From the NCBI GenBank assembly GCA_900318035.1, contig ONJC01000008.1, positions 1 to 64,000 on the forward strand: a DNA stretch of 64,000 bases, in the 5' to 3' direction. Position numbers and translations under genes: made by a program. The stretch is from an uncultured Methanobrevibacter sp. (GTDB lineage: Archaea > Methanobacteriota > Methanobacteria > Methanobacteriales > Methanobacteriaceae). Under the pieces are notes generated by a model. That model did no database searches, had not been told where the DNA came from, and saw nothing but the letters and a program-made list of their open reading frames with translations. Numbering within the stretch: position 1 is the first letter of the stretch; every line of letters starts with the position of its first letter. Shown one piece after another: positions 25,366 through 40,931 of this stretch.

Positions 25366-28008
25366 TTAATGTTGATATAACCAGTCATAAACACGACTGC
25401 AATTTTTTTGGTCAGTGTATTTGAAGAATTCATCTACACGTTTTTTGTACTTTTCTTCCATTTCGCAGTCATTGTCCATGTATTCAATAATCTTTTCAAC
25501 CAAATCCTCTTCATTATCTATTACATCACCGAAACCCATTTCTTCATAGCTGAAATATCCTTCATCATAATGGTAGTCATTTCCCTCATGATAATAGATT
25601 ACAGGCTTTTTAAGAAATGAAAAGTCGAAAAATACGCTGGAATAATCAGTAATCATTACTGCAGAATTATTGAATATTGTCTGATAGGAATCATGAGTAT
25701 TCACTTCAATAACCTCAGTATCTATTGTGAATAAATCAAGGAAAGGCTGCAAATCATAATGAGGTCTGAATACAAGTTTATAACCTTTGTCCTTAATTGC
25801 ATTCAGTAGCCTTTCATTATTTAAAAAGCTGTTGAGACGGTAGTAATATTCGGATTTTTCAAATGCCTGCCTGTTTATCAGATGCTTTCTCCAGGTCGGT
25901 GCAAATAAAATTTCCTTTTTGGCAACTCCAAACTTTAGATTGTCATGGCGAGGAAGTCCAAATGCCTGAACAACCTCTTCATCATAATTGTAGGTGTCTC
26001 CAAGTATTGAATCTCGCTCATAATCAGATGATGTTAAAAACAGATGCAGGTTCTGGAAGAATTTCCTAAACCAGCTTGACAGGTCATCCTTAATAACCCC
26101 ATGTTGCAGGAAACATTTCTCAACAGTCAAAAATCCATTATAATACGGTCTTTTCGGATTGAAAAACGGATTCAGCCAGCTGTGGTTTACATGAGAGGAA
26201 ATCATTTTTTCAGCAAACAGGTACAGGAACTTATTTTTAAATGAACCCAAAGGCACGATGTTATCGTCAATCTTTTTCATTTCACCGAAGTCTTCACAGT
26301 CCTTGCTGATTACAAAATACTTCTCGATTTCATCATCCTGTTTTATGGCATACCGGAATAAGTGTTTTGCATTGTCATCCGCAATGTCGACACGGTCCTG
26401 GAATAGCCAGATGCGCCTGTTTCTCATGAACGGATATAGGAACAGATATAATAAATGGTAAAATATTCCGGGAACTGATGAGCTGTTGTGGTCCTTAATC
26501 ATTTTCAGCATGGACACTATTTCAAGTTTTGCGGACTTTAAAAATGAATAGGGCTGCAGGTAAAATGACTCGTCACCCCTGTTGTATATCACCATTTGAT
26601 CATCTTTAATCAGATAGTTGCAGACTTTAGAAAGGCCCGCATCATAATTCTGGAACTGCAGAGGATTGTGCATTACTGCATGTTTTCCGTCTTCATCATA
26701 AATCAATTTGAAATAAATTCTTGAAACTTCTCCTTTGGAAATCGGGATTTTAAAGTCAACGCAATAATCAAAATTCCAGCAAACCCCAATTGACTCGCGC
26801 GGATATCTGTTAGTTGTCGGATAGTCAAAGAATTTTCCTTCATAAATTTCCTGTAAACCGTCATTTTTAACTTTAACTGCTTGCATTGTAAAATATTTAT
26901 AATCACAACTGCTTCTGAAAAATGTTGAGAAATTTAAACTGTTTTCAATGATTTCCACAACATCAACAACCAATAAACTTTTATGCAAATTATCAATGGT
27001 ATATTCATTGGATTTTAAGGATACCATATTTGCTTCAACATCAATGTGAAATTCATTGTTTTTCAAATAAATCAAAAATGATTTGATAGTTTCACCTAAA
27101 AACTTATGATTTAATATGATTTCATCATCAATGTAGGCCAGCACGTCCTGAAGAGATTTTCTAAATTCAATATACTCCGATTTGTTTAAAACAGTTGAGG
27201 ACGGAATGTTGTAATATTTTTGAATATCAAAAGCAAGAGCATATTTAATGAAATCCGGCAAAAATCCTTTCTTATCAATAGAATAATCAATTAACTGTTT
27301 GTAAAAATAAGTTACTTTATCATTAAAGAAATCTTTTTGGAGTTTAACAGTATCAGAGCATGCGGATTCATCAGGCATTATACGAAAGTAATATTTAGCG
27401 TCCTTTATTATTGCATATTTTCCTTCATTAATCAATATTTCATTTATCAACAGTGAATCTTCACCTATCATTAATTTTTCATCAAATGAATAATTATTCA
27501 AGATGTCCTTTTTTATAAAACATGAGGATATGCTTAATTGAGGATACGTATAATCTTCATATACGTCGATTAACTTATTGGAGTTATAGTTTTCAAGCAA
27601 AAGATTCTCATCATCACTTCCAAGAAATATCAATGGAATTGATGCAACATTTACATTAAGATTATTTTTGAAATAATTATAGATGACTTCCAGTGCATTT
27701 GGAGATAATTTATCATCACTATCCAAAAAATTTACATATTCTCCTGTTGCATATTTTAAACCTAAATTTCGGGCAGCTGACTGGCCAGCATGGTCTTGTG
27801 ATAAAATGAGAATATTATCCGGGTATGATTCCTGATATTTTAATGCAATACTTCTTGAATCGTCAGTAGAACCATCATCAATCAGTATCAATTGCACATT
27901 ATCCTCAAAATCCAGTGTCTGATTGATTACTGACTCGATACATTCCCTGATATATAATTCAGTATTGTAAAAAGAGGTGATAATCAAAAACTTAAACTCC
28001 TTATCCAT
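25366..28008 (-). CDS. GT2 plus CDP-glycerol glycerophosphotransferase-like fusion (880 aa)
   Basis: This has the same plan as its 898-aa neighbour. The N-terminal GT2 domain looks intact: IDDGSTDDS (43-51), QSAARNLGL, DSDD (96-99) and GEDSLL. The middle region (about 340-500) is shared with the paralogues. The C-terminal TagB/TagF-like domain has CFLQHGVIKDDLSSWF, FAPTWRKHL, FRPHYDLQPFL and MITDYSSVFFDFSFLKKP. It should add a sugar and a polyol-phosphate unit, or similar, to a surface polymer at the inner face of the membrane. An AT-rich TATA-like stretch about 26 bp before the ATG suggests a leaderless transcript. It is divergent from two acyltransferase genes. Confidence 0.87.
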   Translation of the reverse strand: MDKEFKFLIITSFYNTELYIRECIESVINQTLDFEDNVQLILIDDGSTDDSRSIALKYQESYPDNILILSQDHAGQSAARNLGLKYATGEYVNFLDSDDKLSPNALEVIYNYFKNNLNVNVASIPLIFLGSDDENLLLENYNSNKLIDVYEDYTYPQLSISSCFIKKDILNNYSFDEKLMIGEDSLLINEILINEGKYAIIKDAKYYFRIMPDESACSDTVKLQKDFFNDKVTYFYKQLIDYSIDKKGFLPDFIKYALAFDIQKYYNIPSSTVLNKSEYIEFRKSLQDVLAYIDDEIILNHKFLGETIKSFLIYLKNNEFHIDVEANMVSLKSNEYTIDNLHKSLLVVDVVEIIENSLNFSTFFRSSCDYKYFTMQAVKVKNDGLQEIYEGKFFDYPTTNRYPRESIGVCWNFDYCVDFKIPISKGEVSRIYFKLIYDEDGKHAVMHNPLQFQNYDAGLSKVCNYLIKDDQMVIYNRGDESFYLQPYSFLKSAKLEIVSMLKMIKDHNSSSVPGIFYHLLYLFLYPFMRNRRIWLFQDRVDIADDNAKHLFRYAIKQDDEIEKYFVISKDCEDFGEMKKIDDNIVPLGSFKNKFLYLFAEKMISSHVNHSWLNPFFNPKRPYYNGFLTVEKCFLQHGVIKDDLSSWFRKFFQNLHLFLTSSDYERDSILGDTYNYDEEVVQAFGLPRHDNLKFGVAKKEILFAPTWRKHLINRQAFEKSEYYYRLNSFLNNERLLNAIKDKGYKLVFRPHYDLQPFLDLFTIDTEVIEVNTHDSYQTIFNNSAVMITDYSSVFFDFSFLKKPVIYYHEGNDYHYDEGYFSYEEMGFGDVIDNEEDLVEKIIEYMDNDCEMEEKYKKRVDEFFKYTDQKNCSRVYDWLYQH

Positions 28009-28352
28009 ACTATTATATAGAGAAATATAATATTTAAATCTAATTTTTTCAAAAAGGAAATTTTAAAGAACACTTAGATTTCGATTTGAAAGAATTTTAC
28101 ACTATTAGTTTCATTATAATTAATCCAACATAGGATATGACTTAAAAAAGATAAAAATAGACTAAATTTATATTCAGATTAAACATCAATTAACAAACAT
28201 TACCCTCATGAAAAATCATATCAGAAATCATGAAAAAAAAACAAAAAATATTATTAAAATGTGAAAAAAGCTAATGAAAACCATTATTTTTCATTAATGT
28301 TATATATTAAGTTTTATAAAAATTAATTTATAAGCAAAATGGGATAAGAATT
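28009..28352. other. 344-bp divergent AT-rich spacer
   Basis: No gene is seen; the longest ORFs are under 20 codons. It contains promoters for the fusion glycosyltransferase gene (TTTAAATA near 28031-28038, minus) and for the acyltransferase gene (TTATATATTAAG near 28301-28311, plus). The plus leader ends with GGGATAAG before ATG 28353. Confidence 0.4.
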
Positions 28353-29480
28353 ATGGCAAATTCAAATGTAGGAAAGAAAAAATCAAAGCGCATATTTTAC
28401 TTTGATGCGTTAAGAGCTCTGGCAATAATCTCTGTAATTATTTTTCATATTTTTGCCAGGAGCAGCAGTATAGTGTATGGAGACTATGGGACAATACCGT
28501 CATTCAATTGGCTTTTTACAGATGTAATGGGAACTTTTTTCAGATGCGGCGTAGATTTGTTTCTAATGCTTTCAGGAGCATTATCTTTAGGTCGTGTTTG
28601 GGACATAAGGTCGTTTTTAGGAAAAAGATTGCCTAGAATCGTCGGACCGTTTCTTTTCTGGTTAATTATAATATCTTTCGCAGTATTATCACTTAATTTA
28701 CTGTATCCATCTTTCTTTAACGGATTCCACAATTATCTTCCAATCAAATCTTACTCACTAAATTCACTGCTGAAATTTATTTACAATGCATCATTAGGAT
28801 ACAACATATGGTTCGGCCAGTACTGGTTCTTCTGGATGATATTGGGAACCTACCTGATTATGCCAGTATTCAATAAATGGCTATTCAATGCAGACCTGAA
28901 AGAGGCAGAATACTTTTTGGCATTCTGGCTGGTTACCTGTCTGTTCACATATACATTGGGCGTGAAATTCCCTGTTAACCTCAAATACTTTACTGGACCT
29001 ATTGGAATGGTTGTTTTAGGATATTACCTGAGGCATACCGAAAGGAAAATATTCAACAACGTTTGGGTGTCAATTCTTTTAACAATCGCGCCACTTATAG
29101 CTATGTTAATCTGCTCATATCTGATGTCTGATGTAAATCACATCGAAAATTTCGACAGATATTCAATATTTTTAGCAATTGAAGTTATGGGAATTTTCAC
29201 ATTGTTCAAAACTGCGGGACAGTTAAATATCAATATCAACTTCTTTACACGTCCTGATGGCATCTTTAGAAAATCCGTGTTTTCAATTGCAAAATACAGT
29301 TACGGAATGTATTTAATCCATTTGGCAATTATGAACGCACTGCTAATAATTTTCATTCCACATGTTCACTATAGAGTGCTGGTGCTGATAATGTTTGTTG
29401 GAACAGTATTACTGTCATGGGGATTGCTTGCCCTACTGAACAGAATTCCATATATCAACAGAGTCATTGGTGCCAAATAA
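28353..29480 (+). CDS. Acyltransferase family 3 membrane protein (375 aa)
   Basis: A membrane O-acyltransferase of the OafA/WecH type. It has about ten helices. The N-terminal motif YFDALRALAIISVIIFHIF contains the family's conserved His. GVDLFLMLSGALSL and RLPRIVGPFLFW correspond to the conserved Arg-containing second motif, and YSYGMYLIHLAIM to the late motif. Such enzymes move acetyl or other acyl groups onto surface sugars. It is the first of two tandem paralogues (69-bp gap) between the CDP-glycerol transferase-like genes, so it probably decorates the same polymer. The start has GGGATAAG nearby. Confidence 0.9.
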   Translation: MANSNVGKKKSKRIFYFDALRALAIISVIIFHIFARSSSIVYGDYGTIPSFNWLFTDVMGTFFRCGVDLFLMLSGALSLGRVWDIRSFLGKRLPRIVGPFLFWLIIISFAVLSLNLLYPSFFNGFHNYLPIKSYSLNSLLKFIYNASLGYNIWFGQYWFFWMILGTYLIMPVFNKWLFNADLKEAEYFLAFWLVTCLFTYTLGVKFPVNLKYFTGPIGMVVLGYYLRHTERKIFNNVWVSILLTIAPLIAMLICSYLMSDVNHIENFDRYSIFLAIEVMGIFTLFKTAGQLNININFFTRPDGIFRKSVFSIAKYSYGMYLIHLAIMNALLIIFIPHVHYRVLVLIMFVGTVLLSWGLLALLNRIPYINRVIGAK

Positions 29481-29548
29481 TCCTATTTTTCGATTTTTTT
29501 ATTATTTAATCTAAAATACTTAATATAACTACTGGCAAATGTGGTATC

Positions 29549-30565
29549 ATGGCAGAGAAAACTAGAATCAAATATTTCGACACTTTAAAGTTTTTGGCAA
29601 TTTTAGGAGTCATATTTCTTCATTGTTTCATACTGAAGGAAAACATTCTAATTATAAATTTCAATATAGTTGATTTAAACCAGATAGGAAGATTTGGTGT
29701 ACCTTTATTTTTACTTATTAGTGGAGCATTACTCTTAAATAGAGAAATAGAGCTTAAATCATTTTTTAAAAAGAGATTTGTTAGAATCTGTTATCCTCTG
29801 TTCTTTTTTATAATAATCGCATATCTCTTCAATATATATGCTCGCCCATTAGTCGCATTCTGGTACTGTTGGATGGTTCTGGGAGCATATCTTGCAGTTC
29901 CTATCATGAATATATTTGTAAAGTATGCATCTGAAAAGGAAATCGAATATTTTCTGGCAGTATTTGTTATAACTGCATTACTGTATCAGACATTTAAATT
30001 ATTCAATATAAAGTATTCTCTGGATTTGAACTTTTTCATTACGCCGATTTCATATCTTATATTGGGTTATTACCTATCAACCAAGGAATTTGACAAATTC
30101 CCTAATAAGATAATCCTGATTTCATTTGCTCTCTTTGTCATTTCAACTATTTTAAAAATGAAATTTGGAAATTTCTTTGACATATATCCGAAAATGAACC
30201 TGTCTTCTACTCTGGATTTGGGAATTCTTCAAATAATCCAGGTAAGTTCAGTATTCCTGATTGTCAAAAATGTTTACAGCGAGCATGTTACAGGAATCTT
30301 TTCATCAGTCAAAGGATTTTTAGAAACAAATATTGTAAACGGATTCATCTTATCTGTAAGCAAAGCCAGCTACGGAATGTATCTGGTCCACATGTTATTC
30401 CTAAAGTACTATGTGAGGCCGTTTTTCAAAACCTTGACACTGAGCAGCACAAATATGGTAATTGCATGTTTTGCAGTATTTGTTGCACTATTTTTAGGCT
30501 CATGGATTATAACTGTAATACTTGGAAAAATACCATACATCAATAAAATATCAGGTTATGCATAA
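29549..30565 (+). CDS. Acyltransferase family 3 membrane protein (338 aa)
   Basis: A paralogue of the upstream gene, slightly shorter: KYFDTLKFLAILGVIFLHCF (conserved His), GRFGVPLFLLISGALLL, KRFVRICYPLFFF and KASYGMYLVHMLFL. About ten helices. The two genes probably form one transcription unit; the second has its own weak ribosome site (GTGGTATC). It is convergent with a CDP-glycerol glycerophosphotransferase-like gene. The acyl donor and acceptor are unknown. Confidence 0.9.
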   Translation: MAEKTRIKYFDTLKFLAILGVIFLHCFILKENILIINFNIVDLNQIGRFGVPLFLLISGALLLNREIELKSFFKKRFVRICYPLFFFIIIAYLFNIYARPLVAFWYCWMVLGAYLAVPIMNIFVKYASEKEIEYFLAVFVITALLYQTFKLFNIKYSLDLNFFITPISYLILGYYLSTKEFDKFPNKIILISFALFVISTILKMKFGNFFDIYPKMNLSSTLDLGILQIIQVSSVFLIVKNVYSEHVTGIFSSVKGFLETNIVNGFILSVSKASYGMYLVHMLFLKYYVRPFFKTLTLSSTNMVIACFAVFVALFLGSWIITVILGKIPYINKISGYA

Positions 30566-30599
30566 TAACCACCATTTTCATTTTTACAAAACAGATAGG

Positions 30600-32144
30600 C
30601 TAATGTTTCAGTATCCAGCCATAGCATCTTTTTGAGTTGTCATGGTCATGATATGTGAAAAATTGGTCAATTCTCCTTTTATAAACATCTTCCATTTCGC
30701 AGCCTTTGTCGATGTATGAGATTATTTTATCGACCAGATCTTCCTCATTGTCGATTACATCTCCAAAACCATTATTTTTGTAGCTGAAATAGCCGTTTTT
30801 AGCATCATAGTGATAGTCATTTGCATACTGGTAATATATCAGTGGCTTTTTGAGGTATGCGAAATCGAAAAATATTGATGAATAATCTGTTATCATCATG
30901 CATGATTCGTTAAAGACATTCTGATAACGTGACTCCAGATCAATTTCAACATAATCATTTTTATCAAACAAATCAAGATACTGTGTTAATTCAGGATGCG
31001 GCATGAATTTAATTCTGTAACCATAATTCTTACAGTATCCTATAAGTTTCTCATTATTTATCAGTGAATTGAATCTTTTATAATATTCGGAGCTCAGCAA
31101 TTCAGTTTTATCAGCCAGGTAGTTTCTCCAGGTCGGCATGATAACTATCTGCTTTTTAACATTTTCATTGGTGAGATTATCGTATCTCGGAAGGCCCAAA
31201 AGCTGAATAACATCCTCATCATAGAAATATCCCTCATCAAACAGGGATTCATACTCCCTTTGTGTGGAGGTTACAATCAATTTTGGGTTGCGGTCATATT
31301 TTCTAAGCCAGGAGGACATGTTATCCTTTATGACACCATGCTGCAGGAAATAAAAGTCAAGATTACAGATGCCCGCAGTTAACTGATGGTTTGTGTTTAA
31401 AAACGGATTCAAGTCAAATTCAGATCCCTGTGATGAAATCAGCTTCTTTGTGAAAATATAATATAGTTTATGTTTGAACGAATCGCAGTCAAGGATTTGT
31501 CCTTTGAATAGCTGGTTAATTCTTGAAAAATCAGGACTTGCATTGTGAAGGACAAAGAACTTCTTGATTCCGTCCTTTTTATCCTTAATGTATTTGAAAA
31601 GGTGCTCCGCATTATCGTCAGCCATTGTCTTTCTGTCCATCACCAGCCAGATATCCTTATTTTTCATGACAGGATATGCAAGGAGAAATATGAATCTGAA
31701 TAAAATTGCCTGGCCGTAAAAACTTGGACGATTTTTGATGATATCGATTAACTCCTTTGCCTCGAATTTTAACATTGAATAATATGAATAATCCATTACA
31801 TTAAATGACCCGTTGAAGTAAACAATCTTATTATCTTTAACGAAATATTTACTAAAATGAGAGAGGTTGCAAAATTCCCTAAACCTAATCGGATAATCTA
31901 CATCGTCCCTTGAATTTATTGTAATTTTTAAATTTTCATCATTGACAGGCACTTTAAAATCAAAATTGTAGATGTCTTCATCACGCCTTGTCGGATAATC
32001 AAATGAATTGACATTGACGTTTTCGCCATTGCACTTCACATCAACACCTTTTTTAGCATTTTGACATTTGAGATATCCTGAAACATTTAAAACGTTATCC
32101 CTCAATGTAACAAAATCGATGTTAATCTTATCATTAAACTCCAT
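30600..32144 (-). CDS. CDP-glycerol glycerophosphotransferase-like protein without GT2 domain (514 aa)
   Basis: The third member of the local paralogue family. It lacks the GT2 domain and begins in the shared beta-rich middle region (KINIDFVTLRDNVLNVSGYL ... FDYPTRRDEDIYNFDF). The C-terminal TagB/TagF-like domain (about 170-510) is complete: FLQHGVIKDNMSSWL, MPTWRNYLAD, FMPHPELTQYLDLF and MITDYSSIFFDFAYLKKPLIYY. It could be a primase or polymerase of a polyol-phosphate chain. The short leader has GGGAATG before the ATG. It is likely a monocistronic gene convergent with the acyltransferases. Confidence 0.87.
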   Translation of the reverse strand: MEFNDKINIDFVTLRDNVLNVSGYLKCQNAKKGVDVKCNGENVNVNSFDYPTRRDEDIYNFDFKVPVNDENLKITINSRDDVDYPIRFREFCNLSHFSKYFVKDNKIVYFNGSFNVMDYSYYSMLKFEAKELIDIIKNRPSFYGQAILFRFIFLLAYPVMKNKDIWLVMDRKTMADDNAEHLFKYIKDKKDGIKKFFVLHNASPDFSRINQLFKGQILDCDSFKHKLYYIFTKKLISSQGSEFDLNPFLNTNHQLTAGICNLDFYFLQHGVIKDNMSSWLRKYDRNPKLIVTSTQREYESLFDEGYFYDEDVIQLLGLPRYDNLTNENVKKQIVIMPTWRNYLADKTELLSSEYYKRFNSLINNEKLIGYCKNYGYRIKFMPHPELTQYLDLFDKNDYVEIDLESRYQNVFNESCMMITDYSSIFFDFAYLKKPLIYYQYANDYHYDAKNGYFSYKNNGFGDVIDNEEDLVDKIISYIDKGCEMEDVYKRRIDQFFTYHDHDNSKRCYGWILKH

Positions 32145-34181: not shown

Positions 34182-34200
34182 GTAGCTATAATACAGCTAC
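34182..34200 (-). terminator. Hairpin terminator of the cyclase/kinase operon
   Basis: Arms GTAGCT / AGCTAC with a 7-nt loop span the stop codon of the kinase-like gene; the minus strand then reads TTTTCTTTTTATTTTC. Confidence 0.5.
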
Positions 34201-34887
34201 CAGATAATATAAAATAGCAGTTATGGTAGGGACTGACAAATTATCAATACCTCCGTAACTTAAGGCTTCACATACTGTTGCAACAGCAGAAATCATTAAA
34301 ATATAGACTATATTGAATTCAGGCATTGTACAACCGATTGAAGTGAAAACCATCCATACAAACACGCTCATCACTGAAGTGATTACAAACATGGTAAGTG
34401 ATCCTTCAACAGATTTTGTTCCTCCGAACACTGTGTATTTGAGTCTACCGAATTTTTGACCTATAAGTGCAGCAAAACCGTCGCCATATACCATAGGAAC
34501 AATAGCTAATGCTACAATCCATATGAAGAATTTAGGGTCATTTGCCGGAGCAATCATTGTAAATACGGCAATCAGAATTGTCCATATTGCAGCATAGAAG
34601 AACAGTCCCAGTGCATGGCCTGATTCGGTTACGCTGTTTTCTATCTTGATAGGAGAATAATCTGTCAAAAAGAACAGTCCAATTGTAATCGGAAGTGTTA
34701 AAAACCATACCATTACCCATGGATCTGAGAAAAACGGCATGGCAAATATCATATTACCTACCATGATGTGCAGAAACTTACGTGAAACTTCAGGCCTTGT
34801 CTTTAACACCTTTTCGGCCACTACAAAAATAATGGCCACATAAATATAAACAACAATCAATGCGAGGATATCTGTGAATATCATCAC
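34186..34887 (-). CDS. Phytol/dolichol kinase-like membrane protein (233 aa)
   Basis: A polytopic membrane protein with about seven helices of the CTP-dependent polyprenol/phytol kinase and CDP-diglyceride synthetase-like group. Marks are SRKFLHIMVGN near the N-terminus, VPMVYGDGFAALIGQKFGR (the catalytic-type GDxxAxxxGxxxGR motif, about 147-166) and GTKSVEGSLTMF. Relatives phosphorylate dolichol, phytol or farnesol. Its ATG overlaps the tocopherol-cyclase-like gene by 4 bp, so the two products are made together. In plants, phytol kinase (VTE5) and tocopherol cyclase (VTE1) belong to one pathway; here tocopherol synthesis is unlikely, and recovery or modification of an isoprenoid is a better guess. 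Confidence 0.8.
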   Translation of the reverse strand: MMIFTDILALIVVYIYVAIIFVVAEKVLKTRPEVSRKFLHIMVGNMIFAMPFFSDPWVMVWFLTLPITIGLFFLTDYSPIKIENSVTESGHALGLFFYAAIWTILIAVFTMIAPANDPKFFIWIVALAIVPMVYGDGFAALIGQKFGRLKYTVFGGTKSVEGSLTMFVITSVMSVFVWMVFTSIGCTMPEFNIVYILMISAVATVCEALSYGGIDNLSVPTITAILYYLVAVL

Positions 34888-36002
34888 TTATCATACTCCC
34901 CATATTCACATCCTGCATTTTCTATTTTTACATGGTCGATTAATGTTCCGTCTTTTTTGTATAGTTTTATTTCACCCCAACCGTTTCCACCATTCCATAA
35001 ACGGTTGTGTCTTTTCTGACCGTCAGGAGCTTCATAGTTAATTAACAGCATTTCGTCACGTTTGCAATAAAGCACCAGTTCCATTCTGGAGTTCTTGTTT
35101 GTTGCATTTACATGCCAGGTATGTACCTCTTCACCTTCCTGGAAGTCAAAATCGATTTTTACCATGTTCCAGAATCTGGCGAAGTTGTATTCATACATTG
35201 TGCCTTCATAGTAAAATCCTATTAACAGTTTACGAGGTATTGAAATACCGAATGCTTTTGGCCTTCCACCACCAGCTTCAAAAGCGGAATTATGCAGCTT
35301 TTTGCCTGTTTTAAGGCTTGTTATGTTACATGATGAAATCCAGAGCCATGGTGAGGTAAAGTCTCCTCCCCAGTTTTTATCAGCATATCCATAGGATTTT
35401 TCAGGAATTACCTCATATTCTTCACCGTCAAGCCAGATGGTTCCACTGTATTGGGTTTTAATTCCTTCAGCATGCCAAAACATTTCAAATGAGTTTAATT
35501 TTCTAAATAATGAGTTTGCACCATAACCTACATTAAAAGCGATTTGCTTGTCAATATCCAAATCCCACATCATTTCTCCTGCATCACTCATATATTCAGG
35601 GTGTTCCTGAGCCTCTTCTTCAGATACCCTTGAAAATCCACTCATATGAGTTTCAGTCAGGCTGCAGTCACCTACACGAATGTTCAGTTCATCATCAGGA
35701 CAGTCGAAGTATTTCATTGAGTAAAAATTATGTATCTGTTTCGGATTTTTACCCCATGTTCCCGCCTTAACCATACAGTAAGACGGTTTTTTGCCTGCTG
35801 CCTTATTTTCAGGCAATTGTCCTAGAGTCGGTTCTTCTTCAGCCAATGCCGGATTACATACAAAATATTCAATAAAAAATGGCCTTGGTTCACCGGTTTT
35901 TTTATTATATGCAGTTAAGGAATGCCACCACCAGTCATAACCCTTTTTGGCAAGTGGTCCTTTGAGCATGAAATAATCTCTTTTCAAATCACTTTTGTTC
36001 AT
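34884..36002 (-). CDS. Tocopherol-cyclase-like protein (372 aa)
   Basis: A soluble protein without signal peptide or membrane segment. It resembles the tocopherol cyclase (VTE1) family of lipocalin-like proteins: YDWWWHSLTAYNK near the start, SYGYADKNWGGDFTSPWLWI (about 207-226) and AFEAGGGRPKAFG. Plant and cyanobacterial members close the chromanol ring of prenylated quinols. Homologues in anaerobes have no known role. It is the first gene of a two-gene operon with the phytol-kinase-like gene. It could bind or change an isoprenoid compound. Family assignment is from recognised motifs only. Confidence 0.75.
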   Translation of the reverse strand: MNKSDLKRDYFMLKGPLAKKGYDWWWHSLTAYNKKTGEPRPFFIEYFVCNPALAEEEPTLGQLPENKAAGKKPSYCMVKAGTWGKNPKQIHNFYSMKYFDCPDDELNIRVGDCSLTETHMSGFSRVSEEEAQEHPEYMSDAGEMMWDLDIDKQIAFNVGYGANSLFRKLNSFEMFWHAEGIKTQYSGTIWLDGEEYEVIPEKSYGYADKNWGGDFTSPWLWISSCNITSLKTGKKLHNSAFEAGGGRPKAFGISIPRKLLIGFYYEGTMYEYNFARFWNMVKIDFDFQEGEEVHTWHVNATNKNSRMELVLYCKRDEMLLINYEAPDGQKRHNRLWNGGNGWGEIKLYKKDGTLIDHVKIENAGCEYGEYDK

Positions 36003-39098: not shown

Positions 39099-40931
39099 TC
39101 AGATTTGAGGAATCCTTTCATTGGTATTTTGCGCTGTCCAGCCAACACCGAAGCTGTTATAAAGATTATCCAACTGTGTCTTGGTGGAATCTGCCAGATT
39201 ATAGTTCAAATTAACAATGACTCCTGAAGTGTCATAGTCATTGAACATTGAGTACATATAATCTACTGTCAGCCAGTTGGTTGGAATGCTGTGGCTTCCG
39301 TGGTCATAATCCCCTGAAGGATTGCCCACCAGAACCTGCTTACCGTCTTTACTGATATCCAGGATTGCAACATAATGGTTCCATGTGTGGAAAATTAAAG
39401 CACAAGCTCCTTTCTTAAGCTCATTGATTGCCTTTTTATATGTTGAATTGTCATAAATGGTACATTTATATCCGCATTTCTCCAAACCTTCTGCAAGAAG
39501 GCTTGTAAATGAACCGTCCTCATAGGTAGTCTTGGAAAGTATTGCAAGTTCCCTTTCACAGTGATAATCCTTTAAAAACTGAGTGCACATACTTGATGAA
39601 GTCGGACCGCAGGTATATCCTGTATCCTGCACATCCCTCACCTGAGGATATGTATAGGATTTGCCTTTTAGGGATACTGTAATCTGTTTTGGAGAGTATC
39701 CAATCTTATTGGCTTTTACGACTTTTGTATTTATGGCACGTTCAATAACATTCCATTTTTCCCTTACAAGGATATGTTTTAGCTTAGGTTCAAGTTTTGT
39801 TTTAAAGAAAACATACTTTGACATTTTTTTGTATAAGTAAAGAGTCTGACTGTCTCTTTTGATTGTATCCCGATAATGGCTTTTCAAAAGAGTGTATTTC
39901 ATGTCGCCGTCAGCCATTACATAACTGCCCGGCATCACATCAATGTCAGGAACACCGTTGACCAATACTATTTTTTGACTGAACGGACTTTTTGTACTTC
40001 CTTCAACACCCAGGACGTTTTTAGTACTTTTTGATCCCAGGATAGTGGATGTTCCGTTATAAACAACAGTCACCTTTAGATTTCCAGTGCCTAATTTAGG
40101 AGCAAAAATCACACATCCTTCGGCATTTGTTGTTTTTAAAAATGAGCTGTTGCCAATCTTTATCAGAATTTTCTGGTTTGAAATAGCAGAGTAGGTTGGG
40201 CTTTTCAGATAAACTCTCAAATATCCTTTTGTAAGGAGTTTTTCATTTCCGATTACAACGGAAGTCGTTGCAGGCACAATCATTGAGATTGTTTTGGAAA
40301 CTGCCTTGTAATATGTAGTTCCCGCAAAGGAAATTTTCACGGAATATATTGCCTTTGGACTAAATGTATTCTTGAATGAAGCAACCCCATTTTTATCTGT
40401 CTTTGCAGTATAGGTAAGCTGATTGACAGTGAAAGTCACCTTTTTATTGCTCATAGGATTGCCGAACTTATCCTTTAAGGTCGCCTTGAAATAATCATTG
40501 TTTAAAACAGAGGCGTTTTGAACCTTAACCACTGATTTTAATTTGACCACATTTACATTGAATTTCTTGCTTACTGCAGTGTAATTGTCATTGCCCTTGA
40601 AGGCTACCTTTAAAATATAGCTGTTGGGTTTTAATTTTAACTGCAGACTGGTTTTACCATTATCATCAGTATACATACTATAATACTCATTATTGACCTT
40701 TGCAATCACTTTCTGACCGGAAATCGGTGCATTATTGGAATCCTTCAGTGATATTCCAATAGAATGCTGAGTATATACAGCTGAAGCATTTACCGCTACA
40801 ACGGGCGTTTGTTTCACATTTGAATCAGCACTTAACACATCTTCAGTGATGTTTTCACTAGCCGACACAGCAGCAATGAAAAATACTGATAAAAATATGC
40901 AAATAATTAAAAATTTCATTTTTGAATTCAT
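39099..40931 (-). CDS. Secreted Ig-like protein with C39-like cysteine peptidase domain (610 aa)
   Basis: The signal peptide (KFLIICIFLSVFFIAAVSA) is followed by three Ig-like repeats (about 45-325) like those of the adhesins. The C-terminal region (about 425-575) is a papain-like C39-type peptidase domain: DTGYTCGPTSSSMC with Cys441, then HTWNHYVAIL with His519, then VLVGNPSGD, where the usual catalytic Asp of 'DP' is Asn537 and Asp541 lies nearby. In methanogens, secreted or phage-encoded cysteine peptidases (PeiW/PeiP C71 type and C39-like PeiR) cut the peptide cross-links of pseudomurein. This protein is therefore a candidate wall-remodelling enzyme; self-processing or export processing are alternatives. 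No pseudomurein-binding repeats were recognised. Confidence 0.82.
   Translation of the reverse strand: MNSKMKFLIICIFLSVFFIAAVSASENITEDVLSADSNVKQTPVVAVNASAVYTQHSIGISLKDSNNAPISGQKVIAKVNNEYYSMYTDDNGKTSLQLKLKPNSYILKVAFKGNDNYTAVSKKFNVNVVKLKSVVKVQNASVLNNDYFKATLKDKFGNPMSNKKVTFTVNQLTYTAKTDKNGVASFKNTFSPKAIYSVKISFAGTTYYKAVSKTISMIVPATTSVVIGNEKLLTKGYLRVYLKSPTYSAISNQKILIKIGNSSFLKTTNAEGCVIFAPKLGTGNLKVTVVYNGTSTILGSKSTKNVLGVEGSTKSPFSQKIVLVNGVPDIDVMPGSYVMADGDMKYTLLKSHYRDTIKRDSQTLYLYKKMSKYVFFKTKLEPKLKHILVREKWNVIERAINTKVVKANKIGYSPKQITVSLKGKSYTYPQVRDVQDTGYTCGPTSSSMCTQFLKDYHCERELAILSKTTYEDGSFTSLLAEGLEKCGYKCTIYDNSTYKKAINELKKGACALIFHTWNHYVAILDISKDGKQVLVGNPSGDYDHGSHSIPTNWLTVDYMYSMFNDYDTSGVIVNLNYNLADSTKTQLDNLYNSFGVGWTAQNTNERIPQI

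Follow-up and report, generated by a model that had tools for sequence, protein, structure and literature searches.

The window, a stretch of 64,000 nucleotides of contig ONJC01000008.1 from an uncultured Methanobrevibacter sp., carries on its minus strand two adjacent open reading frames at the positions given in the original prediction, which meet at a stop/start junction:

34186–34884, minus strand: predicted VTE5/DolK-superfamily membrane kinase, 232 aa; ATG start at 34884, coding 34884–34189, stop to 34186.
34887–36002, minus strand: predicted CrtC/AttH/tocopherol-cyclase-fold enzyme, 372 aa, soluble; assigned from the C-terminal half of PF14249, the fold, the tree and invariant columns.
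34882–34886, minus strand: TGATG stop/start junction, read from the sequence; TAATG or ATGA at this spot in relatives.

The overlap between the two genes had been given as 4 bp, but on comparison with relatives neither a GTG start of the kinase nor a 4-bp overlap is conserved. In the nearest relatives the junction is TAATG, with TAA as the cyclase stop codon, which places the kinase start at the ATG at 34884 and reduces the overlap in the window to 1 nt (TGATG). More distant relatives have an overlap of 4 nt, in the form ATGA, and in genus g9 the genes are separated by a gap of ~40–208 nt. Judged from the TGATG junction, the kinase and the cyclase-like gene are probably translationally coupled. 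Strong purifying selection acts on the cyclase-like gene (dN/dS 0.02–0.08) and on the kinase gene (dN/dS 0.03–0.17). The cyclase is present in 58 of the 67 genomes of genus g1 and the kinase in 63, with corresponding figures of 16 and 17 out of 19 in g9. Both genes are real, under selection and overlapping, and the pair is maintained in these two Methanobrevibacter-type genera, within which the conserved neighbourhood that had been anticipated in other genomes is indeed found.

Downstream of the kinase the window holds an adhesin-like gene; several g1 genomes instead have there a regulator gene, named LytTR-like by eye, along with one or two genes for small membrane proteins, for example at:

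L238, 6942–7910
L240, 3950–4918
L241, 4398–5114

Elsewhere in the window, 25366–28008 and 30600–32144 (minus strand) encode two CDP-glycerol:poly(glycerophosphate) glycerophosphotransferase (teichoic-acid-type) proteins, one of them fused to a GT2 glycosyltransferase, and these genes are adjoined by acyltransferase-3 type genes at 28353–29480 and 29549–30565. By predicted content, the genes of 25366–32144 would make up a methanogen locus for a surface polymer akin to teichoic acid. A further adhesin-like protein (39099–40931, minus strand) has Ig-like repeats, the only part detected by Pfam, and a C-terminal stretch that, by eye only, resembles a C39-type cysteine peptidase.

The kinase region (34186–34887) gave no match in Pfam or NCBIfam, and sequence comparison with the PDB returned no relative. 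An alignment of 24 members reveals the motifs RKxxHI, YGDGxA..G.KxGK and KSxEGS, and we take the combination of RKxxH, GDG and KSxEGS to be the signature of the VTE5/dolichol-kinase (COG0170-like) superfamily. The best PDB match of the predicted fold is the CDP-DAG synthetase CdsA (4q2e), with a Foldseek probability of 1.00 but an E-value of 0.02, and the fold search does not separate substrates. Motifs and model place this 232-aa, multi-helix membrane protein in the phytol/dolichol-kinase superfamily, and a prenol kinase is its probable function. Two bacterial relatives carry the kinase domain fused to DUF92 (190 and 178 bits), the VTE6 phytyl-phosphate-kinase family; in these VTE5-like/DUF92 proteins it is the N-terminal half that is 35% identical to the window kinase:

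L244, 1495–2943, plus strand: VTE5-like kinase–DUF92 fusion; the gene follows a squalene/phytoene synthase gene.
L245, 703–2145, minus strand: VTE5-like kinase–DUF92 fusion.

The DUF92/VTE6 family may be compared with COG1836 (PMC9782597). The fusions come from Lachnospiraceae and Lacrimispora, and they look as though one salvage enzyme of these gut bacteria combined both steps from prenol to prenyl diphosphate. A distant paralogue of the kinase (~29–33%) occurs at L169 (G128) and L243 (G131), each with an ether-lipid cluster that contains a geranylgeranyl reductase, a MATE-type transporter and a second UbiA prenyltransferase and, at L169, also CDP-archaeol synthase.

The cyclase-like reading frame (34884–36002) matches PF14249 at 44 bits, against a Pfam gathering cut-off of 26.6 (E = 2e-11). 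The match covers positions 150–334 of the 335-position profile, and the suggested kinship with tocopherol cyclase (VTE1/SXD1, EC 5.5.1.24) stands for the C-terminal half and falls away for the N-terminal half, which is unmatched. An AlphaFold2 model of the 372-aa protein, built from 40 sequences, has a pLDDT of 90.3, and all 11 Foldseek matches with E < 0.001 belong to the CrtC/AttH/tocopherol-cyclase superfamily (probability 1.00). Structural neighbours of the model include the Diels-Alderases Fsa2 and relatives, kievitone hydratase and 25-phosphosteroid lyase (E 3e-8 to 6e-6). On this modelling the protein has the two-barrel, lipocalin-like fold of the superfamily, so that the cyclase fold first predicted for it is upheld by both the Pfam score and the structural matches. 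The predicted fold is common to kievitone hydratase, 25-phosphosteroid lyase, the Fsa2-type Diels-Alderases, CrtC and AttH, at an identity of 9–12% and a TM-score of ~0.45–0.5; compared with the kievitone hydratase/CrtC/AttH group, the cyclase-like proteins form a separate subfamily of ~372 aa with an N-terminal WWWH motif.

Four residues, W176, H177, Y206 and D208, are invariant among the 40 sequences of the cyclase-like family. Its motif GYADKNWG aligns with the D-x-x-W-G motifs of kievitone hydratase and 25-phosphosteroid lyase, with D208 aligned to the former enzyme. Kievitone hydratase hydrates at an isoprenyl side chain. For its part, 25-phosphosteroid lyase acts on an isoprenoid side chain that is phosphorylated, from which it eliminates the phosphate (PMC11061730), and the superfamily enzymes found carry out hydration or elimination at isoprenyl side chains, or cycloadditions. 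When compared by motif rather than by superposition, the W/H and Y-x-D spacing also resembles that of the four essential residues of CrtC, H239, W241, Y266 and D268 (PMC4717167). A gene of M. ruminantium had earlier been labelled ‘tocopherol cyclase’ by bioinformatics (PMC7772410). Methanobacterium-like genera have a different PF14249 protein of ~328 aa (L142–L144; G134, G135, G137), which scores 68–83 bits in its main stretch, is matched near full length in G134 and G135, and lies nearer to the PF14249 family than does the gene in the window.

Close relatives of the cyclase-like protein (55–65% identity) are common in Lachnospiraceae, other Clostridia, Paenibacillus, Bacilli, Treponema and others, and among the bacterial loci compared its gene has no conserved neighbour beyond pairs or trios. 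Any relative of the kinase is present in 6 of the 28 bacterial cyclase-bearing genomes, and there it lies at a locus or on a contig separate from that of the cyclase. The archaeal copies occupy two positions in the tree, a single archaeal clade being rejected (AU p 0.0009), with the main type in g1, g6, g9 and g12/Methanosphaera and a second type in G025, G065 and G060. The tree indicates two or more acquisitions from anaerobic bacteria, in whose genomes the gene is a solitary one. The kinase is found downstream of both transferred types, represented by the main clade and by G025 (L053), where the genes are neighbours in the order cyclase, kinase, TMK-like gene. Methanosphaera (g12) and G007 possess the cyclase and no kinase; G041 and G067 retain cyclase remnants upstream of an intact kinase, and have each lost the cyclase beside it. 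Outside g1 and g9 the number of co-occurrences is zero, the cyclase being absent from every kinase-bearing genome there. The idea that the cyclase is an obligate partner of the kinase was rejected on the independent distributions, the deletions and the stand-alone bacterial copies. Carriage on plasmids or viruses was also considered and rejected, as plasmids gave no match to the cyclase-like gene and no relative in viral contigs was confirmed.

The gene whose distribution tracks the kinase most closely encodes a divergent, thymidylate-kinase-like (TMK-like) protein. Across 139 Methanobacteriaceae genomes the two are found together in 87, singly in 7 and not at all in 45 (phi 0.89); outside g1 and g9 the numbers are 10, 1 and 42. 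On a DGGGP-synthase tree of 60 genomes, 5–6 of 8 independent changes in the kinase coincide with a like change in the TMK-like gene and none with an opposite one, and the phylogenetically corrected co-occurrence is marginal on this tree (sign test, median p ~0.06). The pairing with the cyclase is maintained in g1 and g9, but beyond them it is the TMK-like gene that tracks the kinase. The two genes are adjacent in G042, G037, G065, G060, G002, G004, G015, G025, G027, G106, G133, G134 and G136 and, by coordinates, in G135; beyond the pair lineages of g1/g9, the TMK-like gene comes next after the kinase gene. In g4, g15 and g16 the kinase gene is divergent from a near-universal UbiA gene, most likely that of DGGGP synthase, the ether-lipid prenyltransferase, and in g16 the TMK-like gene lies ~4 kb from this site. 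In G000, the genome of the window, the TMK-like gene stands beside cofH on contig C41, a place where G042, G037, G065 and G060 hold the kinase too; the kinase thus seems to have moved out of that operon to join the cyclase. Read from these gene arrangements, the ancestral operon would have consisted of the kinase and the TMK-like kinase, and it is the latter, not the cyclase, that appears as the evolutionary partner.

A housekeeping dTMP kinase was considered for the TMK-like gene and rejected, as its product scores 57.8 bits against TIGR00041, below the equivalog cut-off of 83.25, while a proper Tmk encoded elsewhere in the G000 genome scores 153.4 bits. DUF92 was similarly dismissed as a gene tracking the kinase, since it is near-universal (125 of 139 genomes). 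Given that this known type of second kinase is so widespread, the TMK-like protein may have another role.

These features can be set against two known systems. In the VTE5/VTE6 phytol route, the first step is likewise performed by a VTE5-superfamily membrane kinase, with the product headed for prenyl diphosphate, and bacterial fusions join the kinase's domain to a VTE6-family domain. However, the second enzyme of that route is of the DUF92 type, whereas the co-evolving second gene in Methanobacteriaceae encodes a TMK-like P-loop kinase, and the route feeds tocopherol, whereas the methanogen product would likely be used for ether lipids. A two-step phosphorylation of C20 prenols is also described in archaea, in the form of geranylgeraniol and geranylgeranyl-phosphate kinase activities of Sulfolobus (Ohnuma 1996, as relayed in PMC9385802, PMC9782597 and PMC10849223), albeit reported as activities and in a different archaeal lineage; no assignment of genes to these activities was found in the literature searched.

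The best reading of the kinase is a variant of prenol salvage, and that of its cyclase-like neighbour a laterally acquired CrtC-fold enzyme. We give the whole explanation, in which the kinase and the TMK-like protein would salvage C20 prenols and a bacterial CrtC-fold enzyme was recruited in addition, a probability of about 0.5. The analysis itself shows the folds or motifs, the histories of the genes and their co-occurrence, the make-up of the operon and the lipid-gene context; the substrates, the direction and order of the steps, the identity of the second kinase and any action of cyclase and kinase on the same molecules are what we infer. We propose that free C20 prenols (geranylgeraniol, possibly dietary phytol) would arise from lipid turnover or diet and be phosphorylated to the monophosphate by the CTP- or ATP-dependent membrane kinase. 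The TMK-like P-loop kinase (contig C41 of G000) may then convert the prenyl monophosphate to the diphosphate; alternatively, DUF92 could perform this second phosphorylation, leaving the TMK-like protein with a different role. The prenyl diphosphate would be reused by GGGP and DGGGP synthases for ether lipids. An isoprenoid role for the kinase, as originally suggested, draws support from the superfamily motifs, the DUF92 fusions, the co-occurring TMK-like gene and the DGGGP-synthase context. Phytol is a possible substrate of this route; among the papers listed by a literature search on Methanobrevibacter and phytol, none was relevant.

Most likely, the cyclase-like enzyme would use acid catalysis at a C=C bond, for hydration, elimination or cyclisation. 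Its substrate would be a lipophilic alkene or other lipophilic compound, probably isoprenyl-bearing, that is common to fibre-degrading anaerobic communities. The gene, acquired at least twice from anaerobic bacteria, was later placed in the kinase operon. That it feeds the kinase is favoured by two adjacent acquisitions and disfavoured by the uncoupled losses; a shared substrate is doubtful, since the two genes go separate ways in Methanosphaera, in the bacteria and in G041 and G067. A bolder version, which seems unlikely to us, makes the TMK-like protein a prenyl-phosphate kinase of a new, non-homologous kind; it would form an archaeal prenol salvage pathway together with the VTE5-like kinase, and the CrtC-fold enzyme, recruited twice to the operon by rumen Methanobrevibacter, would feed plant prenyls (phytol-type) into membrane lipids.

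One alternative is a tocopherol-like or phytol-dedicated pathway, in which phytol would be turned into phytyl phosphate by the kinase, with chromanol-type ring closure left to the cyclase. Both proteins belong to the appropriate superfamilies, the overlapping genes are retained in g1 and g9, and many records are of gut or rumen origin. Yet the PF14249 match is confined to the C-terminal half, the cyclase came from bacteria and stands alone there and in Methanosphaera, its co-occurrence with the kinase outside g1 and g9 is nil, and the kinase has its partner in the TMK-like gene. Moreover, 4-hydroxyphenylpyruvate dioxygenase (HPPD) gave no TIGR01263 match in G000 (genome ~88% complete), and the search for a homogentisate prenyltransferase found a single UbiA relative in the genome, the near-universal DGGGP-synthase-type gene. 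We therefore reject a tocopherol-type pathway, and with it the VTE5/VTE1 pairing from which the locus was first interpreted, as highly improbable.

Two further readings concern the kinase and its neighbour separately. The kinase could act on dolichol or polyprenol and provide N-glycosylation or pseudomurein with its lipid carrier, in which case the cyclase-like gene would be an unrelated neighbour. The superfamily does include dolichol kinases, which a fold search cannot tell apart by substrate, but we consider this improbable: the oligosaccharyltransferase AglB/STT3 is present in 127 of the 139 genomes and persists in Methanosphaera and other kinase-less groups, so that a need of N-glycosylation for the kinase is not supported, and the neighbours of the kinase are DGGGP synthase and the TMK-like gene rather than glycosylation genes. 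A somewhat stronger case, tentative nonetheless, can be made that cyclase and kinase are functionally unrelated and that their operon is an insertion accident, kept for its promoter or for translational coupling, a view compatible with prenol salvage by the kinase. It would account for the independent distributions of the two genes, the loss by deletion of the cyclase next to a kinase that is intact (G041, G067) and the location of the kinase at other loci in M. smithii-like genomes; it sits less easily with two separately acquired cyclase lineages that both lie upstream of the kinase, with a pair that stays together across differing genomic contexts in g1 and g9, and with purifying selection on both genes.

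Under the prenol salvage reading, the VTE5-like and TMK-like kinases give the archaeal salvage of prenols, reported as an activity in 1996, concrete candidate genes. With these candidates it can be tested directly whether phytol from the diet enters the membranes of rumen methanogens. Where genes of methanogens and gut Firmicutes are annotated as ‘tocopherol cyclase’, meanwhile, the label hides an uncharacterised, laterally moving enzyme family.
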